Shown: in pieces, positions 38,276-59,600 of the stretch | Layout of the letters: the number at the start of each line of letters is the position of its first letter | How positions within the stretch are numbered: the first letter of the stretch is position 1 | Translations under genes and position numbers: made by a program | DNA from: Escallonia rubra | Taxonomy: Eukaryota > Streptophyta > Magnoliopsida > Escalloniales > Escalloniaceae | Reading direction: 5' to 3' | Length of the DNA: 64,000 bases | NCBI GenBank assembly: GCA_033065855.1 | Contig: JAVXUO010002275.1 | Coordinates: 248,001-312,000 of the forward strand | The notes under the pieces: generated by a model | Database searches by the model: none | What the model was told of the DNA's origin: nothing | What the model saw: the letters and a program-made list of their open reading frames with translations, nothing else

Positions 38276-41200
38276 CTAGCCCTCTATCTGTCTGCATCTA
38301 ACATCTGCAACGAGATGGCGAATATGTGGGGCATACCATTTCACCCTCTCCACATGTTCTACCAAAACCTCCCAATTATAACCTGCAAATAGACCAAAAC
38401 TTCGATGATGTCGAGCAAATGTGTACTCGTGTAGTTAAAAATGGATACAACATGATATGAGCATTAGTTGACGACATGATACCTTCAGATCTAGCAATAT
38501 CACTGATAGATTTTGAAACATGATCCCTCCACGAACCCTCCACTGAGTCCTTCACATTATCGTGCACGTGCAATACCCCACCTTTACTCCTGCATTATTA
38601 TAAAAATGCCACAAAAAAGTTAAAAGGTAGAAGAAAAAGAAAACAACATACGTGAAAGCAACATCGAAATCCAGATCAAACTCAACGAAGGACTCTTTGA
38701 TTCTGGACCATGAAGCATTCAATACGAATAACCATGTTCAGATATTATAATATAGCTGTGACTAGGGGTGCGTGAATCCTGAGAAAGATGTCAACTTCTT
38801 AGATTTAGCCAACCAAACCCATCTCTAGGATATACAATCACGACTCTCTCAAGAAATGACAAGGTAAACCAATGTGATCATGACATTATTGGTGCTTGCG
38901 ATGGGCCGGATGCGACTTCCCTCAGTCGGTTTGTGTGGCATAGCCATACAGTAACCAATTTTAACAGCCAGCTCTGGGAAGGTCTACACGTGTGCAAACT
39001 TATCCCCAAGTAATGAAAAGTTGATTTGTCTCCCCGAGCCCAGGGAGAACTAGGTAATAATGGAGCAACCTTACCCTTTGTGGTATCAATATTTTACCAT
39101 TGGACTCCTGGTAATGTGGTTATATGTTGCAGACACTAACTAGTCCATCATCATAACAAAGCATTTAATAGACAGAGTAATCTAGTAACTCTAGTGGTAC
39201 ACTCCAAGAAAAGATAGACAGAACACCTTAATGCCCTTACAGCAGTAACCCAACTACCCTCACTCGTTGGCAGGAGACCAAGGCAGACTCGATCAGCAAC
39301 TCCCTATAAGAAAACAAGGAAATCACTGATAAGACATCTTTGAGAAGAAACCTGCATATTGTCTTTCAAACTATGACTTCACAAGATAAACACACGTCTG
39401 CATCACTGGTACATCATATCATTCATGTCTCGGTCATTACAATAGTATTATGTCAACACAAGGGAAGGCTCGGAATGTTTTAAACAAGGAAAGACGTGTA
39501 AGATCATTTTAAAACAAGTATGCCAAGTTGATAAAATCCGAAACTTATGTCTTTAGTTCTCAGTTCTACTTTTCGTGATTTCAGTAATCAAGGCAGCTGA
39601 TCAGAACTAGATCATCAAGGTGGCTTATTAGAACTAGATCATAATGCAGTGCATATGGTCAGGCATTTACAGCCGATTCCAGTCATCTCAAATATATAAA
39701 TTGCTGTAGACAGTGATAATATATATATCGATAAAGTCAGAGTTCCTACTTTAGGAGCTGTAACTCGATTATCCCCTTCGAGTATGATGCAGTGGTCAGC
39801 AACAGAGTTTGCATGAAGGTTACGTTGGAGTGCCTCAACAGCATGCGAATTCCACTCACAAGCATACACTAGTTTCGCGTTGGCCCTGATCCACATTAAC
39901 AACAAATAATGTTGCAAAAGAAAGCACAAATGCGGGATTCGCATGAAAGGACTCTCTAGGTGGTAGAGCGAATACTTAAAGGGCATTGACAGGTATTCCC
40001 AGCCAAAAGTCTATCCACCCAATCTACAAAACAATATGCTTATATAATAGGCAAACTTGCAAGAAACAAAAGCTGTGATTACATAATGTCAAAAGCAAGG
40101 AATTGGCTTCACTGCCCTTTTCCTAGATTTGATCACGTGATGGCCTGCCATCCTTAATGGGCTCGGTAAAATTAAAAACCCATAAATTATATTTGATCAA
40201 TAAGAAAGTATCATAATGACAGCACAAGTTCAAAATAACTAAAACCTAAGTTATAACATAATTAGATTGTATAATCACAGAATACCTGACAAGGAATGGC
40301 AACACAAAATATCCAATGCCAGCAAACAAGTCCACTATAACCTCATCTCTACAGTCAAGACGAGCCATCCGAAGCTTCTCAGAAAGATTGCCCCAGGAGA
40401 ACATGCACTTGGTAGTATCAAAAGAATAGAGAATCCCATTTTCACGATGATCAACCCAGCCATTATCTCCAACAAGAATCTCCAAAGTACTGTCCCTCAT
40501 TCCAGTAGGTTTGATTCGGCCCTAAAGTTACCAGCATACTCAATTCACAAAAGACAAATATTACTCGTGACATGATATTAGTGCAATCTTCCTTTGAATA
40601 AATTTCCAAAGATCTTCTATATAATTGCTAAGTAGCATTCAACTGTTGTTTGTGATGCCTGCTTATTTCTATATATATATATATATTTGTTCCCAACCTA
40701 TCTTGGTCCGACCCAATGGCCCGCTAGGAGTCCCGCTCCGCGCAAACACGTCGACAGATGCAACAGTCAATTTTTCAACGCATCAAACCGGTCAACGCAC
40801 GCACACTCAAGTCACGTGCGTTTTTCGCTCCGCGCGCGACTTAGGCACGATTCGATTTCACGTTGACGTCACTCACGCTAGCGCGATCGTCACGCCAAGA
40901 CCACCCGATCACCTTTTCATAAAAAACATCGACCGACGGTGCAGTTGGAGCAACGGGGCAAATGGCCTTAGCCAACCCCAGGGGGTCGGCCTCGGCCTTC
41001 CTCATGCCTAGGGGGTCGGCCTCGGCCTTCCCCATGCCTAGGGGGTCGGCCTCGGTCTCCAGGAGGGGTTGGCCTCGGCCATTTTCCCCCGGTGGTTCAC
41101 CCCTTCGCGCAAACCCCTTTTCGCACCTTTTTCGTTTCGTATTCTTCGTACGTGACCTTGGCACCTTGTTCGCTACGTGGGTACGATTCTTGGCAACACA

Positions 41201-44200
41201 CTCGTCATAACGCAACTTCCGAATTCGTCATTGCTTATCAAAACACCTACCGACGGCGCGCCCGAAGTTCGCAAAAGGAGAAGTTACCTTGGGCTCCTCC
41301 ATGGGAGTTGGCCATTTGGCTTTGCCAACAGGGGGTCGGCCTCGGCCTTCCCCCCATTTTTGGCCTATGGCCTCTCCCACTGCGCGCACTTATTTTCTCG
41401 AATCTTTGCACCTCCGCGATGTTTACGGACGTTCGTCGCCCATGACCGCGCACCGCTCTCGCGATGCCTGTTGCCCAAAGTCACGCGCTACCACCGAATG
41501 ACCCATCGATGACGACCGTATACCATCACTCCCAACTTTGTCATTACTACATGTTGCATTCATTACCTTGTTATGACCGGTACACTCAGCTCACATCCTG
41601 TCTTCGGGACACCCGACGCGCGCCCGTGCGCCGTCTCCGCGCCCGGGCGCCATCCTCATGATACGTGCCCCCGACACCAAGTATTGCTCCGCGACGTTCG
41701 TCGTCGCACCACTTTCATAACACGTGCCCCGGCACCAAGTATTGTCTCTGCGACGTTCGTCGCCGCGCTCGTGCGCCACTTCCATGATATGTGCCCACGG
41801 CACCAGGTATTGTCTCCGCGCCCGTGCGCCACTCTCAAAACATGTGCCCCGGCACCAGGTATTGTCTCGTGCTGTAGGCACCGCGCCCATGCGCCACAAT
41901 CATGTTACATGCTTCCGGGATGGGCTCACAACCTTATAGCCATCGCCGTCTCAATCACAAGGGGGCTTCGGCCCTCGTACCGGGATGAGCTCACAACCTT
42001 ATAGCCATCGCCGTCTCAATCACAAGGGGGCTTCGGCCCTCGTACCGGGATGGGCTCACAACCTTATAGCCATCGCCGTCACAGTCACAGGGGGCTCCGG
42101 CACGAGGACCCCTCGCCACAGACTCCGAGCACTGAGCTGCGACTATGTCCACTCATGTTACTGTTGATCGTCGACACCACCAGGGCAATGACCCCCGGGT
42201 CACTCCGGGACGGGAGAAGGTCCTCGGAGGGCATCGCGCCTAGTCCGCCTGGCAGCTGGCTACAGGGGCAACCCTCACCGCTGTCAGGTTCTCTGCGCGT
42301 CTCTTGACGCATCTTGTGGGATTCAATAACGGCTTGGATCGGTGGCCGGGGCAACGGGCTTACTCTGATCATGTCGTCATGGTGTGGTCAGTCTTCTCAG
42401 ACAGGTAGAGCGACGCTGTGCGAGGCAGGCAACGCGAATTTGGGAACCGGCAGTCCAACGGAAAACTGGTATTTTGGGACCCCCTGGTGACGTGTCACTC
42501 CCAGGGGACGACATGTGGCACTTTATGACATAAGCACACCGTTTCCTATAAATAGGGGACTTTACAACTCAAAAAAGGACTTCTTCTTCATTCTCACAAA
42601 ATCACTTTCTCACTCTAGAATTTGAGAGCTGTTGGATTCTAGAGAGAGAAACACAAAATTGGACCGTAACATTGGACCCCGACTTGGACTGTCGACTGCC
42701 GGCCCTGTTCGTCTCAGCCTTGTCTTCGCAGCACTGCCACTCCTCACGGCCTGTCTGGGAAGCCTTGCTCTCTGCCCTTACTCCGCCCTCACTGTCTCTC
42801 ACTTTGCATACTTGGAAGCTGACTCGGACTACAGCCTTTGTGGCACCTCCACGTAAGCACGAACCCACATTCCTTGGCATCATTTTGGCGACTCCGCTGG
42901 GGAGGTGAGCATCGTATTGCAGTCTGCCTATCTTCCACACTCAGTCTCCATGCCTAGACAACAAAGAGTTACAAGGGCTACCAGCCAAGGCCTTATCCAT
43001 ACCGTGCAAGAAGAGGACCACTCGGGTGAACAAGAGGGGACTAGTGCTGTACGTCTCCAAGACCATCCCGCACCTGACGTGCAGGTTGCAGTCAATGCGG
43101 CCATCCAGCAGTTCACTCCCACTATAGCCAGCATACAGGACTCACAAGCTTCTCTCATGACCGCCATAATGGAAATGCAGAAATCTATACAGGCGATGGC
43201 CTCACAGCAAATTGTTCCACCGGTCCAGCCTATAGGACCTGGATCGTCCCCCAGGCCCTAGTGTCACGACCACCGCCGCCTCAACCATCCAGACCCCTGG
43301 CGGTAGGACTCGCGACATCTTCCCCGCCCGTAGCTGACACACTGCGTCCCGTGATGCCACCACACAGACTATAACCGGATCTTGGGCCAGTATTGCAACA
43401 AGTCCCCCCTACTGTTGCGCCTCAACATGTACCAGCCAGGAGCTCTTCCGAGACTCACGAATCCATTGAGATGGAGCCTAACCCCTACTCGACGGAGCAA
43501 CATCAAACGACCGGCCAAGTGGTGGATATGTCTCGTCCGCCCACCCATACCACCCTGCACCTGCCCGCATCAACACCTGCCATGTATCGTCCTTCCACTG
43601 CTCCTGCCCACCAAGTCACACCGTCAGGGGACTCCGGGGCTCGCGGAGCACCGGCCAGCCATCAACCTTTAGTCGGCCAGGAAGAGCCGCTCTCCCACTA
43701 TGTTTCCAAGACCGACTTCGATGCACTTCTTCGCCGGCTGTCACAGTATTCTGCACCCGACTCATCAGACCGATTGACAGGCCACGCGTCGTATGCTAAT
43801 GAGATAGCCATCATACCATATCCACTCAAGTACAAGCAACCCACTTTTGTGCTCTTTAACGGACGTGAAGGCAACGCCCGTGAGCACTTAACCAGATTCG
43901 CCGGTTCGTTGGAGCAATATGGACCAGGCGATAGTTTGAAGCTGAGGGAGTTTCACAAGTCCCTCACAGGCTTGGCGTATACTTGGTACCATCAGATCCC
44001 TGCGGGGACGGTCCATTCATGGAATGAGATGGTCCAACTCTTCTTGGACAAATTCCACTATGAAGCTTAACGCGTCACCATAGTGGACATCGCCGGCATT
44101 CGCCAGGCCCCCGGTGAAGACTTGACCAAATATGTGCACCGTTTTCATCTTAAGTGTCTCGAATGTACAGATTTCAGTAAAGATGAGACATTGGTGCCCA

Positions 44201-47200
44201 TATGCATCAAGAACATGAATGACGTCTATCGGGTGCACCTCAAGAACTTGCAGTTGAAATCATGGGGACACCTCAAGGAAACGGCGCGGCGTACTTACGA
44301 GACAGTCGGGCCCGTCAAACCATGGAGGCCTCGCCCGCAGAATGCACTGCTGGCCTCAGCAGACACATCCAACACTCAGCGCAACAGCACCAGCAACATT
44401 AATAATTACACTGGCTTTAAGCGTCAGTTCCCGGATGGGGACCAACGCTCCGACAAACGGCGACAACTGGAGACTCCGCCTGCCTTTCCATGTGATTTGA
44501 ATACGGTGAAAGAGCTCTTGACAGAATGGGTTGCTAATGACAACTTCCAACTGTCACCTGTGCGGATCCCCATCACAGACGAAGAAAGAACCAGGCTCAA
44601 CTATGCCCCTTCCACCAGGCCCTTGGCCATCCTCTCAAGAACTGCAATGCATTGCGAGCTATCTTTGCAATAAAGATCGCGTCAGGCGACCTACAGCTGC
44701 GAAAGAACCACGATGTGCGGAAGCACCCGTACCCAAATCATGGCAACAACAACCGCGAGCATCAGGTGCTCATGGTTGCTACCGACCACATCGAGTCTCT
44801 CGTCCCCGAAGCTTCTGCGGAAATCTCGCCTATGGTCACAACTTGTGTACCTCCTGCCCCCCAGCCCACTTCCTCTGCTGGCCAAATGACGAAGATCAAA
44901 GGCTTCTTTGACGAAATGGGGTTTTCACCCGCGGCACAGACTTATCTCTCGGACTGTTTGATCGAGGTCACCACGGGCCCGAATGCTTCGCCGCCCAGGC
45001 CGAACTCAGACATATCCCTTCCACCGTATTCATTTTTTCGGACGAGGACTCACCACCAATTGAGCACCATAACCGGCCGCTGTACCTTGAGTGCACTGTT
45101 AACGGCACCAGCTTCCGCCGCGCCTTGGTAGACTGCGGCGCCTCGATCAACATCATCCCTCTCATCACTTTGCAGCAGGCCGATATACCACCAAGGAGGA
45201 TCATCCGTGACCCCATCAAAATTACTGGCTTCGGGCAGGGCCCCCAGTCCACCCTTGGTCACATCACTGTCGACCTCATGGTCGGAACTGTCCGTCGTGA
45301 CACTACTTTTCACGTGATAGACAGCGAGTCTTCCTTCCACCTCCTGCTTGGGCGACCTTGGATTCATATCAACAAGGCTGTTCCCTCGACGTACCACCAG
45401 TGTGTGAAACTGGTGCTTGGTCCTACGGGACATGAGGTAGCAGTAACCATCCCCGCGACCAAGGCCCCTTTTGAATGTGCCGAGTCTTACTTCGCCGAGG
45501 CCTCCTTCTTCACTGAGCTTGCTGCAGATGGTGAGCATGCTACTCACATCCATTCCACCAAACTACCAGATTGGGATGAGCTGTGTGGGAACAAGCCCCC
45601 CAATTCCAAGTCCAAGAAAAGCAACAGAAACAAAGCATCAACCTCGACAGCGCCATCTGCTGTCCCGACCAATTCCTCGCCTTCATCCCCCAAGTCCAAG
45701 AAACACAAGTTTGAAGCCACCTTCCAACGCGTCATCAAAGACGAAAGAGTGATCTACCAGTTATGACGGTGTCCGGGGGGTCCGCCGCCTAACCCCCTCG
45801 ACCCCGACCTACCCACGAAGACAGAGTGGTGTTGTACGGCCGAGCATTGCCCGCCAGACCCTGAGCTTACCCCGGGCGCTGCCCCACTCTGCTATGAAGA
45901 CGAGACGCGTGCCTTAGCCGTCTGTACGTCAACATGCACTCTTCATACGGGACTCCTCCCTGGATGCATTTGCGGGACATCAGTTCACGGTTGGACAGCA
46001 GAGCAAACTTGACAGAGCTTAAGGTATCCCTGCTAGTCGCCTTCTTTCCGGGGTGGCTTCCGGTGTTGTGCGGTCTCTCTCCGCACCATAGTTGGGCCTG
46101 GTTCTTTCTTCGTCTGTGATGGGGATCCGCACAGGTGGCAGTTGGAAGTTGTCATTAGCAACCCATTCTGTCAAGAGCTCTTTCACCGTATTCAAATCAC
46201 ATGGAAAGGCAGGCGGAGTCTCCAGTTGTCGCCGTTTGTCGGAGCGTTGGTCCCCATCCGGGAACTGACGCTTAAAGCCAGTGTAATTATTGATGTTGCT
46301 GGTGCTGGTGCTGTTGCTGTTGCGCTGAGTGTCGGATGTGTCTGCTGAGGTCAGCAGTGCATTCTGCGGGCGAGGCCTCCATGGTTTGACGGGCCCGACT
46401 GTCTCGTAAGTACGCCGCGCCGTTTCCTTGAGGTGTCCCCATGATTTCAACTGCAAGTTCTTGAGGTGCACCCGATAGACGTCATTCATGTTCTTGATGC
46501 ATATGGGCACCAATGTCTCATCTTTACTGAAATCTGTACATTCGAGACACTTAAGATGAAAACGGTGCACATATTTGGTCAAGTCTTCGCCGGGGGCCTG
46601 GCGAATGCCGGCGATGTCCACTATGGTGACGCGTTAAGCTTCATAGTGGAATTTGTCCAAGAAGAGTTGGACCATCTCATTCCATGAATGGACCGTCCCC
46701 GCAGGGATCTGATGGTACCAAGTATACGCCAAGCCTGTGAGGGACTTGTGAAACTCCCTCAGCTTCAAACTATCGCCTGGTCCATATTGCTCCAACGAAC
46801 CGGCGAATCTGGTTAAGTGCTCACGGGCGTTGCCTTCACGTCCGTTAAAGAGCACAAAAGTGGGTTGCTTGTACTTGAGTGGATATGGTATGATGGCTAT
46901 CTCATTAGCATACGGCGCGTGGCCTGTCAATCGGTCTGATGAGTCGGGTGCAGAATACTGTGACAGCCGGCGAAGAAGTGCATCGAAGTCGGCCTTGGAA
47001 ACATAGTGGGAGAGCGGCTCTTCCTGGCCGACTAAAGGTTGATGGCTGGCCGGTGCTCTGCGAGCCCCGGAGTCCCCTGACGGTGTGACTTGGTGGGCAG
47101 GAGCAGTGGAAGGACGATACATGGCAGGTGTTGATGCGGGCAGGTGCAGGGTGGTATGGGTGGGCGGACGAGACATATCCACCACTTGGCCGGTCGTTTG

Positions 47201-50200
47201 ATGTTGCTCCGTCGAGTAGGGGTTAGGCTCCATCTCAATGGATTCGTGAGTCTCGGAAGAGCTCCTGGCTGGTACATGTTGAGGCGCAACAGTAGGGGGG
47301 ACTTGTTGCAATACTGGCCCAAGATCCGGTTATAGTCTGTGTGGTGGCATCACGGGACGCAGTGTGTCAGCTACGGGCGGGGAAGATGTCGCGAGTCCTA
47401 CCGCCAGGGGTCTGGATGGTCGAGGCGGCGGTGGTCGTGACACTAGGGCCTGGGCGACGTCTGGGGGACGATCCAGGTCCTATAGGCTGGACCGGAGGAA
47501 CAATTTGCTGTGAGGCCATCGCCTGTATAGATTTCTGCATTTCCATTATGGCGGTCATGAGAGAAGCTTGTGAGTCCTGTATGCTGGCTATAGTGGGAGT
47601 GAACTGCTGGATGGCCGCATTGACTGCAACCTGCACGTCAGGTGCGGGATGGTCTTGGAGACGTACAGCACTAGTCCCCTCTTGTTCACCCGAGTGGTCC
47701 TCTTCTTGCACGGTATGGATAAGGCCTTGGCTGGTAGCCCTCGTAACTCTTTGTTGTCTAGGCATGGAGACTGAGTGTGGAAGATAGGCAGACTGCAATA
47801 CGATGCTCACCTCCCCAGCGGAGTCGCCAAAATGATGCCAAGGAATGTGGGTTCGTGCTTACGTGGAGGTGCCACAAAGGCTGTAGTCCGAGTCAGCTTC
47901 CAAGTATGCAAAGTGAGAGACAGTGAGGGCGGAGTAAGGGCAGAGAGCAAGGCTTCCCAGACAGGCCGTGAGGAGTGGCAGTGCTGCGAAGACAAGGCTG
48001 AGACGAATAGGGCCGGCAGTCGACAGTCCAAGTCGGGGTCCAATGTTACGGTCCAATTTTGTGTTTCTCTCTCTAGAATCCAACAGCTCTCAAATTCTAG
48101 AGTGAGAAAGTGATTTTGTGAGAATGAAGAAGAAGTCACTTTTTTGAGTTGTAAAGTCCCCTATTTATAGGAAACGGTGTGCTTATGTCATAAAGTGCCA
48201 CATGTCGTCCCCTGGGAGTGACACATCACCAGGGGGTCCCAAAATACCAGTTCTCCGTTGGACTGCCGGTTCCCAAATTCGCGTTGCCTGCCTCGCACAG
48301 CGTCGCTCTACCTGTCTGAGAAGACTGACCACACCATGACGACATGATCAGAGTAAGCCCGTTGCCCCGGCCACCGATCCAAGCCCTTATTGAATCCCAC
48401 AAGATGCGTCAAGAGACGCGCAGAGAACCTGACAGCGGTGGGGGTTGCCCCTGTAGCCAGCTGCCAGGCGGACTAGGCGCGATGCCCTCTGAGGACCTTC
48501 TCCCGTCCCGGAGTGACCCGGGGGTCATTGCCCTGGTGGTGTCGACGATCAACAGTAACATGAGTGGACATAGTCGCAGCTCAGTGCTCGGAGTCTGTGG
48601 CGAGGGGTCCTCGTGCCGGAGCCCCCTGTGACTGTGACGACGATGGCTATAAGGTTGTGAGCCCATCTCGGTACGAGGGCCGAAGCCCCCTTGTGATTGA
48701 GACGGCGATGGCTATAAGGTTGTGAGCCCATCCCGGAAGCATGTAACATGATTGTGGCGCATTGGTGCGGTACCTACAGCACGAGACAATACCTGGTGCC
48801 GGGGCACATGTTTTGAGAGTGGCGCACGGGCGCGGCGACGAATGTCGCGGAGACAATACCTGGTGCCGTGGGCACATATCATGGAAGTGGTGCACGAGCG
48901 CGGCGACGAACGTCGCAGAGACAATACTTGGTGCTGGGGCACGTGTTATGAAAGTGGTGCGACGACGAACGTCGCGGAGCAATACTTGGTGCCGGGGGCA
49001 CGTATCATGAGGATGGCGCCCGGGCGCGGCGACGAACGTCGCGGAGACGGCGCACGGGCGCGCGTCGGGTGTCCCGAAGACAGGATGTGAGCTGAGTGTA
49101 CCTGTCATAACAAGGTAATGAATGCAACATGTAGTAGTGACAAAGTTGGGAGTGATGGTATACGGTCGTCGTCGATGGGTCATTCGGTGGTAGCGCGCGA
49201 CTTTGGGCGACGGGCATCGCGAGAGCGGTGCACGGTCATGGGCGACGGACGTTCGTACGACGTCGCGGGGTTGACGTACGAACGTCCGTAAACATCGCGG
49301 AGGTGCAAAGATTTGAGAAAATAAGTGCGCGCGGTGGGAGAGGCCATATGCCAAAAATGGGGGGAAGGCCAAGGCCAAGGCCCCTAGGAGGCCGAGGCCG
49401 ACCTCCTGGGGAGGCTGAGGCCGACCCTAGGTGGCCAAAGCCAAATGGCCAACTCCCATGAAGGAGCCCAAGGCAACTTCTCCTTTTGCGAACTTCGGGC
49501 GCGCCGTCGGTAGGTGTTTTGATAAGCAATGATGAATCCGGAAGTTGCGTTATGACGAGCGTGTTGCCAAGAATCGTACCCATGTAGCGAACAAGGTGCC
49601 AAGGTCACATACGAAGAATACGAAACGAAAAAGGTGCAAAAAGGGGTTTGCGCGAAGGGGTGAACCACTGGGGGAAAATGGCCGAGGCCAACCCCTCCTG
49701 GAGGCCGAGGCCGACCCCCTAGGCATGGGGAAGGCCGAGGCCGACCCCCTGGGGTTGGCCAAGGCCAAATGGCCAACTTCCATTTTCGGAGCCCAAGGCC
49801 ACTTTTCCTTTTGCGAACTTCGGGCGCGCCGTCGGTAGGTGTTTTGATAAGCAATGACGAATCCAGCAGTTGCGTTATGACGAACATGTTGTCAAGAATC
49901 GTACCCACGTAGCGAACGAGGTGCCAAGGTCACGTACGAAGAATACGAAACGAAAAAGGTGCGGAAAGGGGTTTGTGCGAAGGGGTGAACCACCGGGGGG
50001 AATGGCCGAGGCCAACCCCTCCTGGAGGCCGAGGCCGACCCCCTAGGCATGGGGAAGGCTGAGGCCGACCCCCTGGGGTTGGCCAAGGCCATTTGCCCCT
50101 TGGCCCCGTTGCTCCAACTGCGCCGTCGGTCGATGTTTTTGATGAAAAGGTGATCGGGTGGTCTTGGCGTGACGATCGCGCTAGCGTGAGTGACGTCAAC

Positions 50201-53200
50201 GTGAAATCGAATCGTGCCTAAGTCGCGCACAAGGCGCACGGAGCGAAAAACGCACGTGACTTGAGCTGCGCGCGTTGACCGGTTCGATGCGTTGAAAAAT
50301 TGACTGTTGCATCTGTCGACGTGTTTGCGCGGAGCAGGACCCCTAGCGGGCCATTGGGTCGGACCAAGATAGGTTGGGAACAATATTTTTTTGATAAGTA
50401 GCTTTATATTATTGAGCAAAAAGGCATATAACTACTAGTGATCTCTACTTCTTTCTATATCTGCTGGTCAAGTCCAGAAATAACAGAAAGTACAAAACAG
50501 CTAGTAGCTTAGTATATTTTTGAAATGATTACTCTCACAATTCTTGCCATTATCTGATATGCTACCTTTATGTCCACATGTGCTCTTTTTCTCATTCTCT
50601 AAGGTATGATATTAGCACACTGGTAAAACTTCACTTCCACATAATTTATATTTTTTTAACAATGAATATCAAAACCTAACCATGATGGGGACAAAGAACC
50701 TCTGACGAGCGATAAGAGCTGTGTTTGGAAAAATGAAAAGAAAAACAAAATCCAAACGAAATATTTGAACAAACTATGCAGCCCTCAGGTGTACGCAAAT
50801 TTAAGAACACTAAAAGAGAGGTAAAATTCGCAATGTTGTAAATCTCATGTTAAAAGTACTATCTGCATATATGCAGTGCATTATTGTGTTCCACCATTAG
50901 AAGCTAGATAATACATAGAGGTAGAAGTTACCAAATTTAGACGAAGAGTAATGTTTCGAAGCTAAGAAAGAAAAAAAAGCAGTTCCATGTATATAACTTA
51001 CTTGCCGAGCCAGGCGACGTGTACCCAGTGATTTTGCAATAGTAGGCCAAAGCTCCTCCGCCATTGAGTCCCACACTGGATCCTGGAAAGATGTCACTGG
51101 AAGCACAACAACATCGCCTAGTCGCTCCCATCTGAAATGGAAAAAACAAAAAAAAGTTAGTGTGAATTGTGATGCATTACTGGTGAAAACTGTATATTAT
51201 AGGACCATACAAGCACCGACACTTAGTGTTTGCTCCTAAAAGCTTTAAAGTACACAAAAACTAGAGTTGCAATGTCAATTGTGCTGACAACAAAGAAACA
51301 AAATATAGAACACCAACCTTGTCGGCAGCTCCTCTAATATCTTTGCAGGCAGAGCTTGATGATTTATTAAAGATGCTACAGCTTCATTCATCACTTTCAA
51401 AGGAGATGTTGGAGTTTTTCGGACTTTGACTACCTCGTCGGCAAGTTTAGTAGCACCACATGCCATTAGAAAATTCAAAGCTGTTGAACAGGACATATCC
51501 TTTAATAATAGCCCCTCTCTGTTATATGGTGGGTTGAGGTTGCCCACCTCTTTGAATGCCAAGCGATGCTGCTTACTTTGATATACAGCACAAAAATTTT
51601 CCGTGACAGGAAAATATATGTGTGTGCCATTTTCCCCGGAGTAGACCTTTCTCCTGAGATCTAACCATCCAAACCTTTTCAATACGTCTTTTCCTTGCTT
51701 AGCGAATTTTCTTTCAAGTTGTAGAACAGAAGGCGAAGCATCCATCTGATGCTCAACATTGACACTGAGTCCGTCAATCTCAAGATCCAAGTCGGGACAT
51801 CCAGTTGATGAAGGTTCAATTTTGTTCTGTGGATAATCTGGGCATTTGTTCTTTGGCTCCGTGGCCCCATCCTCTTGGTATATAACATGATTTTCTTTAA
51901 TCCTGGTAGGCACAAAACAATTTGCTAAAGACATTAATGCAAGCAAGTTAACTTTTACTGGTTCACTGAACTTAGTTCCAAATGCATAGCAAGCTGCCCC
52001 ACCACCAATCACTACGAGATCATCACCAATGGCACATGCTGTGCTACGGACAAATAGGTCTTCGCCATTGGTATCCATGACGACATTCTTCCATACATGG
52101 GAGTGAAGATCAAGTAATGATAACTGCTGGTGACTTTGTCTGACAGGGCATCCCCCAAATATGCCAATATAATTCTTATAAACAAACATTAAGTGCGAAA
52201 ACCTTGCATATGGAATTCTTCCAGACATCATTTCCTTCTTCCACAAACATGTTTGAACATCGTAACTATACAGGTCACCTAGTGCTTTCTCCCCGTCGTA
52301 TCCTCCAAACATAAATATCTGAGACCCATATGCAACCAAGGAGTGGGAATGACGGGGACACGGCCATTCCCCTTGCATGTATATCTCCTTCCACTCCAAA
52401 TTGCGTGTGTCAAGGACGAAGAGCGATGAAGAAATTTCATCATTGAGAATTCCACCAAAGACATAAACCTTTGACCCTACAACAGCTGCTGCATGCCGAT
52501 GCCTGTAAAAGTATAATCATAAAAACGATCACGAAAAATTTACAAAAGAACGCATGAGGAAATATAGGGACATCAACACAGAGATATCTACTAAACCCTC
52601 GCAAATCACGAGCTTAACATATGGTCTCTTCTGCATACCTGAACAATAACGGTCATGCAGTGAAAAGACGGTAACCTCAACTAAAACTAGTGACTAGTTA
52701 CAAAAGCAGCAAAGTTTCATATTCCAATCTTTAAGAGAACTTGGACATTACAAAATGAGCAAGACAGCAAAATGTGCAAAACAACTATACAAGCAGCCAA
52801 AGCAGGTATATACAAAAGACATCACCTAGGAGGAAATTTAACGCCAGTACACTGTAGCAGCCTCCATTCCTTCTGTGCTAAATCAAGGACCCAGATGTCA
52901 TTCAAAATAGTGATGGGATCAGCCCTGCCTCCAATAACAAACATGAGGTCTCCTATTACAGAAGACGTGTGGCCCAAGCGTGGAGATGGAGTCCCCTGAA
53001 CAACAACCGCTTCTAATTTACCACACACTGGATCAAGTAACAGGGCATCATTTCTCCGAGAATGCCTTCCCATACCTCCAAAACCACCAAAAACGAGAAT
53101 CTTTTCGTGCTTTGGTTTACCCCATGTACATGCAGAGTGACCCCAGAGGTAAAGCCTCTCAAGAGGTTCACCAACAATCACAATCTGGTTAACGGGTAAG

Positions 53201-54553
53201 CTGATATCAGGAACACCTAGTGACCCTGTCAATGATTAAAGATTCAAACTTGCTGTCACACAAAAGGAAAAGTGACCTGCAAGCAGAGACGTAGTAGCAT
53301 GTAAGAGTACTGCAAACAAGCATCCAGATCAATACAATGAAGCTCAATATGCCTTTAACAATCGTAGCATAAATCCCAAATGGCCTGGCTCTTTGAATTT
53401 TAATTGTTCTTTCATATGCATAGTACCTAAGATCGCAAACAAGTATCCTTAAGTCATAAGAGTATTATATAAATATAGCAAAGTTCTGCTAGGCACTTTA
53501 TCAACATTTATCACATTAGCACATGGGTCATATAAAATTGCATGGAACGTCGAACAAAACACACAGGCAAAATCAAGCTGACAACTACAATTTAAGAGCT
53601 TAAAACCAATGTTCTTGCAAAATACATGTTTATAACCTTCGGTTTTGCTACACCCGCTACAAACACTAATAATAACTAGACAGCATTACACTCATTATCA
53701 CGTCTTTAAAAACTAGGGTTGAAAACAAAATACCAGAATGGCTGTCAACATCATCATCATCTGTCCTTTGAGAATCTTGCCAATCTTTAGAGTTCTGAAC
53801 CTCAACACAAACTGAACCGTTGAACTTCTGATCCACCTCCTTGTCCACCAACTCAAATTGACTACTTTCCGCCGAATTTCCCGGTTCTTGAAATCCATTC
53901 CTCAATAATGCAGCAAAAAACTGATCAGTTCTCCGCTTATTCGCCTCCATTTTCTCATTAGCAATGCCAACAAGGTACTCAACATACTCACTCGACACCA
54001 TTATCCTACCACTATGTCCCAACGGCACCTCCATTCTAATCGAACACCGAATGGCAACGATGACACGCTTGCCCACACTAGTAATCCCACTCTCCCTAAA
54101 CCCACAAGCAATAGCCAAAGCCACCAAATATTGACCCGACAAAACATCTTTACACTCCACAGCAATGATCAACGGCTCAAATCTGAACACAAGCTCATCC
54201 GCGGGCTGACTTGGATGAGCTGACTGAGTCGACTCCGCTGGTGGCTGAGCTGACTCGGCGGGCGGAAAGAGGAGGGACAGGAGCGCGGCGGGGTCAGCTG
54301 GGGAGTGGGTTATGAAGACCCATTTGCCTCCTTTGGCCTTTTTTTTGGTGACGGTGGCGGTGGCGGTGACGGTGGGGGTTGAGAGGACGGAGATGCGGCC
54401 GGAGCAGGAGCTGGTGGTGAAGAAAGAAGGGTGGCGGTTGAGGGTTTTGAGGAGGGGGATGATCGGCTCGTCTAGTGTGCCTTTGGGTGACTTGTCTGGG
54501 TCCGGCGACCCTATTGATGCCAGTGCGGCCGCCTTCCTCTTCTCGAACTCCAT
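38276..54553 (-). CDS. TYW2/3/4: tRNA wybutosine-synthesizing protein 2/3/4 (TYW3-Kelch-TYW2 fusion)
   Basis: Nine exons give 1065 aa: 54553-53734, 53225-52826, 52502-51318, 51131-51002, 40521-40286, 39885-39750, 39303-39227, 38589-38483 and 38382-38276; all phases agree. The N-terminal TYW3 methyltransferase part (about 1-225) opens MEFEKRKAAALASIGSPD and has the HPSFFTTSSCSGRISV motif. A Kelch-repeat part follows (about 295-560; units such as ILVFGGFGGMGRHSRRNDAL and QIFMFGGYDGEKALGDLYSY), equivalent to the TYW4 propeller. The C-terminal half is TYW2, an aminocarboxypropyl transferase with a class I SAM fold: VDLFAGIGYFVLPFLV at about 908-923, then LVYACEWN and LEGDNRVTAPK. The protein makes the modified G37 next to the tRNA-Phe anticodon. 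It matches Arabidopsis At4g04670 throughout. Intron 4 (40522-51001) is 10.5 kb because of an LTR element; coding sequence is intact. Confidence 0.97.
40688..42882 (+). repeat. Left LTR of the palindromic element
   Basis: About 2.2 kb, running from TG to CA (CCTTGGCATCA), directly before the primer-binding site. It holds three kinds of short tandem repeats: three perfect-length 30-bp units rich in GGGGTCGGCCTCGGCC (from 40981), four units of about 55-65 bp with GGCACCAAGTATTGTCTC (about 41656-41900), and units of about 65 bp with GGGCTCACAACCTTATAGCC (about 41916-42110). A TATA box (TATAAATA near 42547) marks the likely promoter in U3. G+C content is much higher than in the host intron. Confidence 0.85.
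42886..42903 (+). other. Primer-binding site, left copy
   Basis: TGGCGACTCCGCTGGGGA follows the LTR end by three bases. It starts with TGG, complementary to the CCA tail of a tRNA, as LTR elements need for first-strand priming. The priming tRNA was not identified with certainty. Confidence 0.75.
42950..44673 (+). pseudogene. gag region, left copy
   Basis: Protein-level similarity to plant Ty3/gypsy gag is clear: a proline-rich N-terminal part beginning MPRQQRVTRATSQG, then the capsid-like retrotransposon gag domain with PTFVLFNGREGNAREHLTRF, AYTWYHQIPAGTVHSWNEM and KYVHRFHLKCLECTDF. The region is a fossil spread over more than one frame with a few interruptions. The part up to 44605 has an inverted counterpart in the right arm. 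Confidence 0.8.
44606..46086 (+). other. Loop of the palindrome, with a retropepsin-like region
   Basis: This single-copy spacer continues the left half-element. At about 45120-45480 it contains an aspartic-protease-like stretch (VDCGASINIIPL with the D-x-G type active-site motif, then HLLLGRPWIHINKAVPSTY), typical of plant Ty3/gypsy elements. A lysine/serine-rich tail follows to about 45766. The last 300 bp before the right arm show no recognised domain. No polymerase region was found. Confidence 0.7.
46087..47765 (-). pseudogene. gag region, right (inverted) copy
   Basis: This is the same gag sequence as 42950-44605, on the opposite strand and nearly identical at protein level (for example the EEPLSHYVSK and WYHQIPAGTVHSW segments). 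It is a fossil with a few interruptions. Similarity to the left arm stops abruptly at 46087, which defines the edge of the loop. Confidence 0.8.
47812..47829 (-). other. Primer-binding site, right copy
   Basis: This is the exact inverse of the left primer-binding site, TGGCGACTCCGCTGGGGA on the minus strand. It stands three bases from the right LTR, confirming that the right arm is a full inverted LTR-PBS-gag half-element. Confidence 0.75.
47833..50382 (-). repeat. Right LTR of the palindromic element, inverted
   Basis: About 2.55 kb, the inverse of the left LTR. It is some 350 bp longer, mainly because a segment of about 330 bp is present twice in tandem (landmark CGAACTTCGGGCGCGCCGTC near 49491 and again near 49818). 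It also has GGCCGAGGCCGACCCC-type minisatellite units between them. The TATA region is conserved (near 48170 on the minus strand). The two LTRs are otherwise very similar. Confidence 0.82.
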
Positions 54554-56647
54554 TGTTGCTCTCACCTTAAGCAGAAAAGGGTTTTGGGTTCTGACTTCGA
54601 TTAAGGTTGAAGAAAAGAAGCATAATTAGCAAAACCTTTTAGCGACAAAAGATAACTAACAAAACTACCGGGTTTTTGCTCATAATTACTTGCATCCAAC
54701 TCGTTCGTGATCGGTTAGTAAGATACGTATCAAAATATGACCCAAAATAGGTTGTTAAATCAAGATGTTTAGTTCGATAAATAAATAATTAGATCGAGAT
54801 AAACAAAATAAGTTTGATCGCATAATTAAAAGCTTGAATAAGTTAAATGAACATAACGAGAAACGAATAAGTCAAGATTAAGTCAAATTTGAACAGACTT
54901 AGGTTTTAGTTTGGTTTGGCTCGACTCATTTTCTCTTCGTAATGCGATTTGAATTCTTTATTTAATCTTTCACCGATGTTGCTTTTTTGACAAGATCGTT
55001 ATTTTAAACATTCAGTAAAATATACTATCAAATAAATCTCAAATTATACTGAATTTTTTAGAAATTTTTTCATCTTAAAGTTCTCTATCACCATCACGCC
55101 CGTTTATCCATTAACACAAAAACATCGACTATAGATGTTAAAGAACCTTATACAATTTGTAAACAGACCATACTCTACTTTTGTCGCTAAAATGCAAGTT
55201 AGGGAAAATGTAGTGCTAAATCCGAAGTAATACCCCCATTTATAATCTAAATAAAATCGGGCTAATTAAAGCAAAAATATTTTTGGATATGTTACCGAAC
55301 AGCCTACAATTCTTTTTCTTACCCCGCACCACCTCGACACCGTCGGCCAGAATTACCGATCGCCACCGTCGCCACCATCACATCACCACCATATCACCGT
55401 ATATCCTCATTCCGCCACCTACCCACCACAAATCCCCGAAAATTGCGGACTCCAACACCTTCTATCTCGCCGGAACCCTAAATCTCGCCTTCATTTCGAG
55501 GTACGTGCTCCACAATTCGTCTATGATTCCTCAAATTGCCTATGGGTTACCCGGGTATATATGAATGTTTTTGTTTTTTTTACTTTAGAGGCAGCCCACC
55601 CACTTAGTTTTAGGGTTCCTCTTTCTCCATAACGTCTGTCATCTCCTCCTCCGCTCCTCTCTTGACTCTCTCTATCTGTCACTCGCTCGCCGGATTGCTG
55701 ATGGTTCCTTCTTTTTCATCTCTGCCGCCGAGCGCCGGGACATCGCCAAGGGTCGCAACCACTTTTTACCACTTCAAGTCCACACGACGGCAGCTCCAAG
55801 TCCACCGTCCGTCTCCGCTCCGCCGTAGCTCCATTTCCGCCGTCCACCATTGCTCCACAATCTAATTTCCCACCTTCAGTCCGTCACTGCTACACCACCG
55901 TATGCTTTTACCGTCACCGCAGACCGCAGTAATTACTTCGGCCATCTCATGACCGACGGTGACATCACTGAGGTTGGACTGAGGAGAAAGACGGGCCTCT
56001 AGTTCCTGACTTCCTGCTTTTTTATTTGGTATACATACTATATTCTATTATAGTTGTTTCTTTAATAAATTTTCAAAATTAAAGTTTTTGTGTTGTTGGT
56101 ATAGCTGATTGAAGAGAGAAACTGTGGATTGAGAAATATGAGGGTTGTTACTGGAGTTTGAGAAGAGAAAACATGGGGTAAAAACTGGAAATTGTAATAT
56201 CTTTTGCTATATATTTTAGTTTAGTAAACTGTAAGGGAATACAGTGATCGAATGGTACGTATATTATCTGGATGTGTTTTCCTCTCTTGTCAATCCAAAA
56301 GATACTGCATGTACTTGATTCTTGTGATACCAAAACTGTGAAAATAAAATTTAGCATTTGCAGTTTTATTTTCAATTTGGTTGGCAAGTCTATTTTCGAT
56401 TTAGTTTGCAAGCAATAATTTCAAGTAATTTTGATATGAAGGTAATTTCAAGTAACTTGGTTTGTTTTCCAGAGCTAAGGAATATGTTTTCCCCGTATAA
56501 GAAGGTATAAGGACGATGGCTGAGTGACAAATAAGAGGAAAAAAGGCAATGTCTGAGTGGCTTCTAGTGGATGTTCGACCCTTTTGCCACACCAAATGCT
56601 GTTAGCATTTTCACGCATCAACTTTTATTACGTATCCTATTTCCAGT
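54554..56647. promoter_or_regulatory. Divergent promoter region and 5' leader of the GON-4-like gene
   Basis: The TYW2/3/4 gene (minus) and the GON-4-like gene (plus) start 2.1 kb apart and diverge. The CG- and CA-rich stretch from about 55300 to 55500 (many CACC and GCCGG units, then CCGGAACCCTAAATCTCGCC) looks like a 5' untranslated exon. It ends in a good donor, CGAG/GTACGTG at 55501. A matching acceptor, TATTTCCAG, ends at 56646, immediately before the ATG at 56648. So a leader intron of about 1.15 kb is likely. Part of 55600-55990 is also pyrimidine-rich, but I see no gene there. Confidence 0.5.
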
Positions 56648-59600
56648 ATGGCTTCTGCTGCTGCTGCACTATCCAGTGAAGTTGGGTGTCTCAATCATCA
56701 AAATGCCCTCTCACCTGGTGGAGAATTATCTAAAGACAGTGAATGTCCTTCAGAACACGAGGATGACGAGGAACTGGAAGACGACGAGGAAGAGGACCTA
56801 GATTTCAACCCTTTTTTGAAAGAATCTCCTTCACTGGAAGCTTCTTCAAGCCTGAGCTCTGAAAATGGGCCGGATGCTGATGTTGCTTACAGTGGTGGCA
56901 ACAATTGCGCAGCCATGGTCAGTACCTCGTTGTCAAACTCACCCAATCAGGTCCAAGACAATTTTGTTGGAGATTCTGAATATGGTGCCGGAATTCTGAT
57001 GCAAGCTAGAGCATGTAAGACAGATTCTCAAATTCCTTTACCGGAGGTTTTGATCTCTCAACCTGAAACTGAAACCTTTACTGAGAAAAATAATGGCTCA
57101 AGCAGCGGACCAGATGTTGTTAATGATGTTATAGTCGGAGAATTTTGCAACACTGCACATTCTAAGAAGCCCATCATGGATAGCGATGATGAGGATGCTA
57201 TTTGCAGGCGTACTAGAGCCCGTTATTCACTTGCCAGTTTCACGCTTGATGAACTCGAGACTTTTCTTCAAGAGACAGATGACGATGATGACATCCAAAA
57301 TGCTGATGATGAAGAAGAGTACAGAAAATTTCTTGCCGCTGTTTTACGTGGCGGAGATGATGACCCTCAGGCTGTACAAGAAACTGAAGTTATTGATGAC
57401 GAAGATGAAGACAATGATGCAGACTTTGAGTTGGAAATTGAAGAGGCACTGGAGAGTGATGTTGATGAAAATATAAGGGTTGAGACCCAAGAACATGAGG
57501 TAGCTGGTCGACGACCCGAGACAAGGCAAAATAAGCGCCAAAAAACTTATGCCCCTCGCAAGAAAAAGCTTTCTGGAGAATCTAATAGGCCATTGCGGCC
57601 ACTCTTACCAAATGCACCTTTCGGAGCTTTTCCTAGGAATAAGTTGATGCTTGACAGGGCTCCATGTTTACCTTCCTCGGCACACAATAGCTTTGTAAAT
57701 GGATTTACTGCACATCAGATAGGCCAGTTGCATTGTTTACTTCACGAGCATGCACAACTGCTTATTCAGGTGTTTTCTCTTTGTGTCCTCGAGCCTTCTC
57801 GGGATCATATTGCATCTCAAGTGCAGGGGTTGATTTCAGAGATGGTTCACAAACGCGATCAAGTATTGGCATGGAGAAGGATACCACATCCCAGTTTGTG
57901 CTTTTGCCCTCCGTATATACATCCATCAGTCCCAGATGAACTTTCAAGTAATTTGCCATCACAGGCGAACTTTGGGTCTTCTTCTGCACTTAATGCACAG
58001 GGGTTGATTTCTAGTGGGCAGGTGAATCCCTTTCAAACTACGGAGGGCTCTTTCTGGGTGCCTTTTGTAAGCGGTCCTGTGCTATCTGTTCTAGATGTTG
58101 CTCCGCTTGCCTTAGTTGGAAGCTATATGGATGATGTTTCTACTGGTATGTCATTTAGAAGCGATAGATTTAACATACTTGGTTACCATTATTTTCTTTC
58201 AACTTTTATCTTTACTATTTGCGTGGACTTGATGTCAGCTGTCCGAGAGTATTGCCGGCGACGTGTAGAAGATACTTGTAATTCTCCCTATGAAAAGGAA
58301 CCCCTGTTCCCTCTTCTACGTTATCAGTCTATATCGGAAAATAATGGTGAAGTTTCAAAAGGAATACTTTCCCCAGCTTCCATACTGGTGCCTTCTTCTT
58401 CAGCAGGCAATCAAACATCTAGAAAGACAATGGCTGGCGCACTTGTTGAAAGAACCAAGAGCCAATCTGTTGCTCCAGTGCCGAAAATTATTGCCAAGTT
58501 AGCTCAAAGGTTTTTACCACTATTTAATCCAGCCCTGTATCCGCATAAACCACCGCCGTCTCAGGTGGCGAATCGTGTTCTTTTCACCGATGCAGAGGAT
58601 GAGTAAGTTGCATGCTTTCGTAACTGTTATTTTGTAGTTGCTGGGTAACCATGTTGCTAAATGGGATGGTTGTTGATTCCAACCATTCTGTTGTACTCCT
58701 TGATTTGCTGCCGAATATTTTCTTGCCAAAGGGTTGTGTTACAGCTATACATTTTTAGTTTTCTAAGCATTTTAGCTATTCTTCCAACATTCCTGTTATT
58801 GGCTGTGAAAATTCATGAAAGATGTGGAGTAGGAGTTGATGTGTTTTAGAGCGTAACATACATATTCTATTTTGAAGTGTTGCACTCTGAAATTGATTGT
58901 TCTAAACAAATCTCAGTTGCATTAATGGCAGAAAAGCAGACACTATCTGTAGCAAAAGGAAGTGTCTTGAGAAGTGTATAAAAGACTTTACAGACTGAGG
59001 TTTATACTTCTCGGTCCAGAAGAACTAGAACGCTCAATACTTCGAGTATTCTGGTGGTGTAGGACGCTAGTGCCATATAGGAAGCAACAGCCTTATCCTA
59101 TATTGGAAGGGGACGGGATAGTAGTCTTTGAGGCCAATTCAATCTCGAGGACCAGGGCTTGTTGAGTTGAACAGAGTAACTTGTTAGTTTTGATAGCGTA
59201 TGATTTTTGCGGTCCCAGCATAAAGACCAACCTTGGCCATAATTCTACAAATAGGGGTACATAACTAATCTAAGGAGCAAGGGTCTCTGACCTCCATGTC
59301 CTCCCTTCTTCTTCCTTCTAAATTTTCTTCTTACCCTCTTTGAATTTGGTTGGAAGGAAAAAGTGTTAGGAAGGACCCTTCATAACTTATATATTCGTAT
59401 TTATATGCTGTGAAATCATACACCTAACACAGATGCTTTGCCCAAACGTAACTCTTATTGGAAGCATAGTTGGAATTAGAAAAATGATACTTTCTAGCGG
59501 TTCTACTTATCAAATGAATTTTTCTGTTGATCTCCTTAGCTGTCACCACCCATACTTCTTTTACTTGCTTCCATGGCCTTGGGTTTTGTTGATTCTTTCA

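Follow-up and report, generated by a model that had tools for sequence, protein, structure and literature searches.

Inverted 5' halves of a Tat/Ogre-like retrotransposon with two outward U3 ends in an intron of Escallonia rubra, and their possible origin from one integrated cDNA

How can an LTR retrotransposon insertion come to present its U3 terminus to the host on both sides? The question is raised by a block of 9,695 bp at positions 40688-50382 of a 64,000-nucleotide stretch of Escallonia rubra DNA (contig JAVXUO010002275.1, 248,001 to 312,000, forward strand; the whole stretch is called the window, and positions refer to it). The U3 terminus of one LTR forms both ends of the block. An ordinary insertion has U3 at one end and U5 at the other, whereas in this block both outer edges are U3, and both adjoin host DNA rather than a PPT.

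Anatomy of the block and its host site

The inverted arms occupy 40688-44605 and 46087-50382, and each contains an LTR, a primer-binding site and gag. The palindrome is genuine; chance is unable to yield arms of about 4 kb. The features of the locus are as follows.

40522-51001, minus strand: host intron GT...AG of a TYW2/3/4-like gene, holding the whole insert, placed from splice sites and lengths
40683-40687: left ATATT, putative copy of a 5-bp target-site duplication, read in the sequence
40688-42882, plus strand: left LTR, TG...CA, 2,195 bp, U3 terminus outward, ends checked against other copies
42883-44605, plus strand: left arm, 5' untranslated part and gag, with a premature stop at 44068-44070 common to the right arm
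42886-42903, plus strand: left primer-binding site, TGGCGACTCCGCTGGGGA, read in the sequence
44606-45902, plus strand: loop part 1, end of gag and aspartic protease
45901-46068, plus strand: loop part 2, 168 bp of an antisense ORF with a weak plant mobile domain match
46071-46090, plus strand: loop part 3, 20-bp templated insert, an exact reverse-orientation match to L011 6197-6216 of copy C995
46087-47832, minus strand: right arm, gag and 5' untranslated part, with a premature stop at 46634-46636
47812-47829, minus strand: right primer-binding site, read in the sequence
47833-50382, minus strand: right LTR, 2,550 bp, U3 terminus outward
50383-50387: right ATATT, putative copy of a 5-bp target-site duplication, read in the sequence

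A preliminary description of the locus had reported the same LTR terminus facing outward at both ends in opposite orientation, with a primer-binding site and gag on both inner sides, and this arrangement was confirmed: the left LTR runs from 40688 and the right one to 50382, with both primer-binding sites, and gag in each arm, inside them. Two of its adjectives had to be dropped. The U3 ends, called "identical", are 97% alike over 117 bp, and the supposedly "whole" retroelement has no pol, PPT or 3' LTR within 40688-50382, so the block is two 5' halves and not a complete element. The unequal lengths of the two LTRs are mostly due to tandem-repeat copy number. The complement of the left primer-binding site is present 540 times in the genome at 17 of 18 bases, and the reversed control 0 times. 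Gag of the left arm matched Pfam Retrotrans_gag at 21 bits, under the cut-off of 24.1.

Open frames flanking the insert matched Pfam TYW2_N_2, TRM5-TYW2_MTfase, TYW3 and kelch, and the host intron minus the insert and one ATATT is 780 bp long. When the joined host exons were aligned with PH0793, there was no gap at the junction itself; this contiguity favours a single insertion and makes a chimeric contig less likely. The two flanks differ from each other and each is single-copy. A genome search for paralogous flanks that might serve as an empty site returned this locus only.

The single ATATT repeat that had been noted around the block is present on both sides, with the correct spacing for a target duplication, and the chance of such a match is between about 0.22% (117 of the 54,305 positions elsewhere in the window) and 0.55% (the 1 kb to each side of the insert). 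As a control within the retrotransposon family, three of the four testable copies had 5-bp target duplications. In one of these three, C2317, GGTTT is repeated two bases outside an LTR end that is degraded; the single miss in the four tests was C1481, an apparent solo LTR without a matching 5-mer. ATATT is a weak 5-mer and the flank is AT-rich.

Family, loop and relationship of the arms

On its sequence features, the family is Tat/Ogre-like Ty3/gypsy. The domains of copy C995 lie on one strand in the order RVT_1, RVT_3, then H2C2 and rve, placing RVT_3 between RT and integrase. Downstream of integrase are two antisense open frames that matched the plant mobile domain, one at 48.8 bits (above the cut-off of 34.9) and the other, which holds the 168-bp loop segment, at 28.8 bits (below it). 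The protease domain scan covered the window copy only, where the loop protease scored above the cut-off for Pfam Asp_protease_2. Neumann et al. 2019 (PMC6317226) describe for the Tat/Ogre lineage an RNase H-like domain between RT and INT, long LTRs, 5-bp target duplications and a mobile domain ORF, the last as an extra ORF in 57% of Ogre elements, and the present family resembles the lineage in each of these; unlike the elements described there, the window copy keeps only 168 + 20 bp past the protease. It is the mobile domain, and that feature only, that points to Ogre rather than Retand.

The first part of the loop is the normal continuation of the left half, and all 39 of the other copies that were scored follow it from 44450 as far as 45898-45903, where they diverge. 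At this junction, where CG is common to both sides, the window sequence passes into the 168-bp segment, whose source in ordinary copies lies about 6 kb further downstream. The 20-bp insert is preceded by 2 bases without a source, and its final 4 bases, CATA, are common to gag. Both inserted pieces derive from the retrotransposon's own 3' region, and the outer junctions share 2 and 4 bases. No other match spanned the loop junctions among the 40 scored for each of two genome searches. A 100% match to a portion of the 168-bp segment lies at locus C1174; this locus was rejected as the parent because it has 12 ungapped differences in 166 bases, more than C995 (8).

Alignment bore out the palindromic arms of the preliminary description, which differ by 62 substitutions in 3,852 aligned columns and by about a dozen indels. 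For the outer LTR, the arms are mutually the best match among the candidates scored (40 of 2,296); in gag they are 98% alike, against at most 93% for the others scored (40 of 4,032 candidates). The gag arms have 12 differences in 1,646 columns and differ by at least 4.6% from each of 27 other copies (29 less L041 and L043, left out for length). The premature gag stop is present in both arms and absent at that position in the 27 copies.

Divergence between the arms is uneven, at 3.3% in the outer U3 and 0.72% from 42110 inward. The divergence between the arms in the outer U3 (3.4%) is only a little below that separating the right arm from copy C995 (3.8%), and derived changes there number 20 in the left arm and 7 in the right (p 0.019). 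Five arm differences at 41325-41332, judged misaligned, were excluded from the outer-U3 rate and from the 31:22 and 20:7 counts; these counts, like the denominators 945 and 2,496, are manual entries taken from the table of arm differences. Because of this unevenness, the inner likeness may be due in part to later gene conversion, or the U3s may have come from different templates, and arm similarity is weaker evidence than it appears because the inner arms look homogenised relative to the outer U3. Faster mutation of the outer U3 was rejected as the sole cause, since the C995 branch shows no extra length there, with 17 private sites over about 0.84 kb of outer sequence and 65 over about 2.5 kb of inner sequence, and since the sister LTRs of the C2987 element are 5-10% apart in each 200-column stretch across their first 2 kb, with the lowest divergence at the outer end. 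CpG frequency is 96.5 per kb in the outer U3 and 53-54 per kb from 42110 inward.

Origin of the insert

A single insertion, by integrase, of a template-switched U3-to-U3 cDNA of the Tat/Ogre-like element is a moderately probable origin. During second-strand synthesis, the growing plus strand (U3-R-U5-PBS-gag-protease) would have left its template once past the protease and continued for 168 bp on the opposite strand of the 3' region of the element. Copying would then have flipped orientation for 20 bp inside that region, and the next switch would have led onto a plus-sense strand at the end of gag, which would have been copied back to its 5' end. The product would be a head-to-head molecule with a U3 terminus at each end, inserted once by integrase into the intron with duplication of ATATT. 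We infer both the part of reverse transcriptase in these switches and the use of two U3 ends by integrase. The single integration of a palindromic, looped cDNA proposed in the preliminary description is the best-supported reading, given the U3 termini, the matching 5-mer, the one intron and the templated scars, once the words "whole" and "identical" are removed from it. A plain self-primed hairpin of one plus strand was rejected as insufficient for the loop, because the pieces in it whose source lies about 6 kb downstream are present in two orientations.

Templated filler arises in host end-joining too. The U3-to-U3 molecule, still integrated once, could have been made by polymerase-theta-like joining, with templated filler, of two broken sister cDNAs, and junctions sharing 0-4 bp with short templated inserts from the same element are also traces of error-prone end-joining. 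The data separate this route poorly from reverse-transcription switching. It is nonetheless unlikely: it requires two cDNAs, each keeping U3 and losing its 3' part, whereas plus-strand growth from the 5' LTR provides an intermediate of that kind in any case. Inversion after insertion, earlier held to be the main alternative, is a poor one because it supplies no second 5' half ending exactly at a U3 terminus. A better rival than inversion is a pair of ordinary convergent insertions in one intron, followed by a deletion with filler that took both 3' halves and everything between them, by gene conversion between the arms, and with ATATT matching by chance. With about 1,600 U3 termini per strand in the genome, some pairs are bound to lie close together, and the uneven divergence agrees with conversion as the filler does with plant break repair. 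We consider this sequence of events quite improbable, as it needs two hits in an intron of about 0.8 kb, a 5-mer coincidence of 0.2-0.55%, and two copies that are mutually closest among those scored; moreover, among 100 listed exact U3 termini (of 3,282 matches) the window pair alone converges within 20 kb. Plus-then-minus pairs among these 100 lay on three contigs, C966 (9.7 kb), C1003 (26 kb) and C1016 (57 kb). The last two were not apt as convergent controls because their right edges adjoin PPT-like sequence, which marks ordinary 3' LTRs.

That one ordinary insertion was rearranged in place, by inverted duplication, fold-back replication or inversion, is very improbable. Fold-back events yield inverted arms and short spacers, but they would copy the left flank to the right side; chromosome fold-back was set aside because the right flank is no inverted left flank, the two being different and each single-copy. 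Rearrangement in place also leaves the exact U3 end and the same 5-mer unexplained. Palindromes are hard to assemble, yet a false fold or chimeric contig is scarcely credible for arms separated by 62 substitutions and about a dozen indels, for different single-copy flanks that are two parts of one intron, and for loop junctions spanned by no other scored match.

Comparison with known systems and a possible silencing role

A switched cDNA integrated once would resemble the complex insertions of Sabot and Schulman 2007 (PMC1950507), in which malformed template-switched cDNA was inserted once, and which were identified from one 5-bp duplication at the flanks and from the relatedness of the outer LTRs. 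By that yardstick, the window block has a matching 5-mer and outer LTRs that are mutually the best scored match but that, in the outer U3, stand only a little closer to each other than C995 does. The published insertions have three LTRs and two complete cores, with the switch between R regions, whereas the window block has two inverted LTRs, 5' halves head to head and two U3 ends, with no pol, no 3' LTR and templated scraps in its loop; a word count for that paper gives 0 uses of "inverted". Retroviral autointegration, as presented in PMC3148978, is likewise an aberrant fate of cDNA, one able to rearrange segments. It was set aside as the origin because its products there are circles, in contrast to a linear insert with two U3 termini and a matching 5-mer. 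Among the titles and abstract openings that searches of open-licence papers listed, none was recognised as describing a palindromic LTR insertion that runs from U3 to U3. The block has the look of a rare accident, not of a novel type of element. If it was integrated once, a pair of U3 ends can serve integrase as substrate in a plant, and switching between strands inside the particle is able to give a stable palindrome whose junctions record the order of the switches.

U3-to-U3 inserts are candidate triggers of transposon silencing. Mu killer is reportedly an inverted duplication of MuDR, and the window block is similarly a natural inverted transposon copy with the potential for hairpin RNA; Mu killer, however, concerns a DNA transposon, and a silencing role of the window block is only putative. 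It is doubtful that the palindrome actively silences the family to which it belongs, as a naturally formed retrotransposon equivalent of Mu killer that arose in one faulty transposition. Each arm retains an LTR of full length with an inward-directed TATA-like box (about 42548). If the silencer reading were true, inward transcription would give RNA with a stem of about 2 kb (R-U5-gag), which could be diced into small RNAs against a family that has roughly 1,600 U3 termini per strand. The intronic site could also let host transcription read through the palindrome, making hairpins. Head-to-head or tail-to-tail copies are raised as a possible source of LTR hairpins in PMC11624286, and the window locus is a concrete place for testing that idea.

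The palindromic block and its family

Self-comparison of the window (C966:248001-312000 of the 566-Mb assembly) resolved a block made of two inverted 5' halves of an LTR retrotransposon.

Parts of the palindrome (window positions)
40688-50382, palindromic block of two inverted arms
40688-44605, left arm, inverted relative to the right arm
40688-42882, left LTR, U3 terminus outward
45901-46068, loop segment, 168 bp from an antisense open frame
46087-50382, right arm, inverted relative to the left arm
47833-50382, right LTR, U3 terminus outward

The preliminary description had proposed the same LTR terminus in opposite orientation at both outer ends, a primer-binding site and gag inward of both LTRs, and one bounding 5-bp repeat, and all of this was borne out. 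The U3 edges lie at 40688 and 50382, and ATATT adjoins the block at its left and right ends. From outside to inside, each arm reads LTR from its U3 terminus, 3 bases, primer-binding site (putatively fitting tRNA-Arg) and gag. Both edges of the block are U3, whereas ordinary insertions pair a U3 edge with a U5 edge. No PPT was found beside either U3 edge of the block, so both are outer edges; the 3' LTR of ordinary copies adjoins a PPT (loci L012 and L018). The LTRs contain minisatellite-like units of 65 bp, about 325 bp and about 30 bp (40964-42109 and 48622-50107), whose copy number varies between the arms and between family copies.

The family copy on contig C995 has the domain order RT, RVT_3 RNase H domain, integrase, followed downstream by two antisense open frames matching the plant mobile domain, one above the Pfam cut-off and one below. 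According to PMC6317226, Ogre and Retand are distinguished by an extra RNase H domain lying between RH and INT, and 57% of Ogre elements carry the plant mobile domain. The gag match of the window copy is weak and below cut-off; an aspartic protease is also present. Genome-wide, U3 termini of the family with at most two mismatches numbered 1,602 forward and 1,680 reverse, versus 4 and 3 for a reversed-pattern control. Three of the four family copies tested had a target duplication.

Family copies tested (by contig)
C2987, full copy spanning about 21 kb, target duplication GTATT
C140, LTR, GGGGG at both sides
C2317, LTR, GGTTT, two bases past a degraded end
C1481, apparent solo LTR, without a matching target duplication

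At G000:C1003:190777-191349, two facing U3 termini of the family are separated by about 0.54 kb, and PPT-like sequence adjoins the left one.

The host intron

The sequences flanking the insert were single-copy in a genome search. The host gene (39639-54625, minus strand) resembles a plant TYW2/3/4 fusion, with TYW3, kelch and TYW2 domain matches, and by its domains looks like a wybutosine-synthesis gene. The minus-strand open frames right of the insert account for the TYW3, kelch-repeat and TYW2 N-terminal domain matches. Left of it, the frames hit the TRM5/TYW2 methyltransferase domain, one exceeding the cut-off and one falling slightly short. A single intron (40522-51001; GT and AG at its borders) holds the entire insert and measures 780 bp once the insert and one ATATT are subtracted. 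No exon seems to be missing around the insert, because the protein from the two joined neighbouring exons aligned to PH0793 ungapped at the junction itself, with small gaps on either side. The single intron and ungapped junction argue against a chimeric contig and limit any host deletion to the intron. Beside the gene, a 666-codon open frame rich in acidic residues occupies 56606-58606 on the plus strand.

Divergence between the arms

Across 1,646 gag columns the two arms show 12 differences, whereas the closest among 27 other copies is 4.6-4.8% away. Both arms carry a premature gag stop, found at that position in none of the 27. Probably the parent element was defective beforehand and received help in trans; inter-arm conversion could also have spread the stop. 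The 62 arm substitutions comprised 36 left-derived, 22 right-derived and 4 unclear, and removal of a misaligned cluster of five left 31 against 22 (p 0.27), as expected for two arms of equal age. C-to-T or G-to-A accounted for 25 of the 31 left-derived changes. The left arm was the shorter in 10 of the 12 indels counted in the arm alignment.

Differences were concentrated in the outer 0.95 kb (31 of 945 columns, versus 18 of 2,496 in 42110-44605; Fisher p 1.4e-7). At the rice rate of 1.3e-8 substitutions per site per year, the outer divergence corresponds roughly to 1.3 million years, a figure that is only indicative. Changes polarised with C995 and other copies numbered 5 common to the arms, 11 left-only, 6 right-only and 17 C995-only in the outer part, versus 39, 5, 5 and 65 in the inner part, indicating that the arms split deeper in the outer part. 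This means that the inner arms were homogenised once the arms had split, or that each U3 had its own template; in both cases inner-arm identity alone is no proof of a single event. The outer part still groups the arms as sisters (5 changes in common, versus 1 and 1 for the alternatives), but by a narrow margin. In the outer U3, C995 lies unusually near the right arm (3.8%, versus 6-7% in R-U5 or gag), and this patchiness suggests recombination among family members.

The loop and the origin of the palindrome

All 39 other scored copies matched the left half up to 45898-45903, where the sequences diverge (31 junction rows). The source of the 168-bp loop segment lies about 6 kb further downstream in ordinary copies. 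Two sourceless bases follow it, then 20 bp, then antisense gag. The 20-bp piece has an exact opposite-orientation match in C995, about 400 bp from the 168-bp source and just beyond the end of the antisense open frame; C140 carries it with one mismatch. Bases common to both sides are CG at the first loop junction and CATA at the last. In two genome searches with 40 scored matches apiece, no other locus spanned the loop junctions. These features are the signature of a polymerase changing template strand within the element itself.

Palindromic retroviral DNA is the subject of an older literature. In the open-licence literature searched by title and abstract start, no U3-to-U3 palindromic LTR insertion was recognised, and the available parts of PMC6317226, PMC11963269, PMC5651808, PMC3187697, PMC3148978 and PMC12312487 describe none. 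Template switching is known to yield complex insertions, diagnosed by a single target duplication and by the resemblance of their outer LTRs (Sabot and Schulman, PMC1950507); those have three LTRs, whereas the palindrome has two. In PMC11624286, head-to-head copies are suggested as a potential origin of hairpins for silencing.

A single integration of the palindrome is probable, since it explains the two outer U3 edges, the matching 5-mer, the one intron and the mutually closest arms together. Two convergent insertions would need two hits within a small intron, the closest relatives as the pair, a later deletion with filler, and a chance 5-mer match, the probability of matching ATATT flanks being about 0.2-0.55%. 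As for how the singly integrated U3-to-U3 molecule arose, switching during reverse transcription is somewhat favoured, and end-joining of cDNAs is unlikely.
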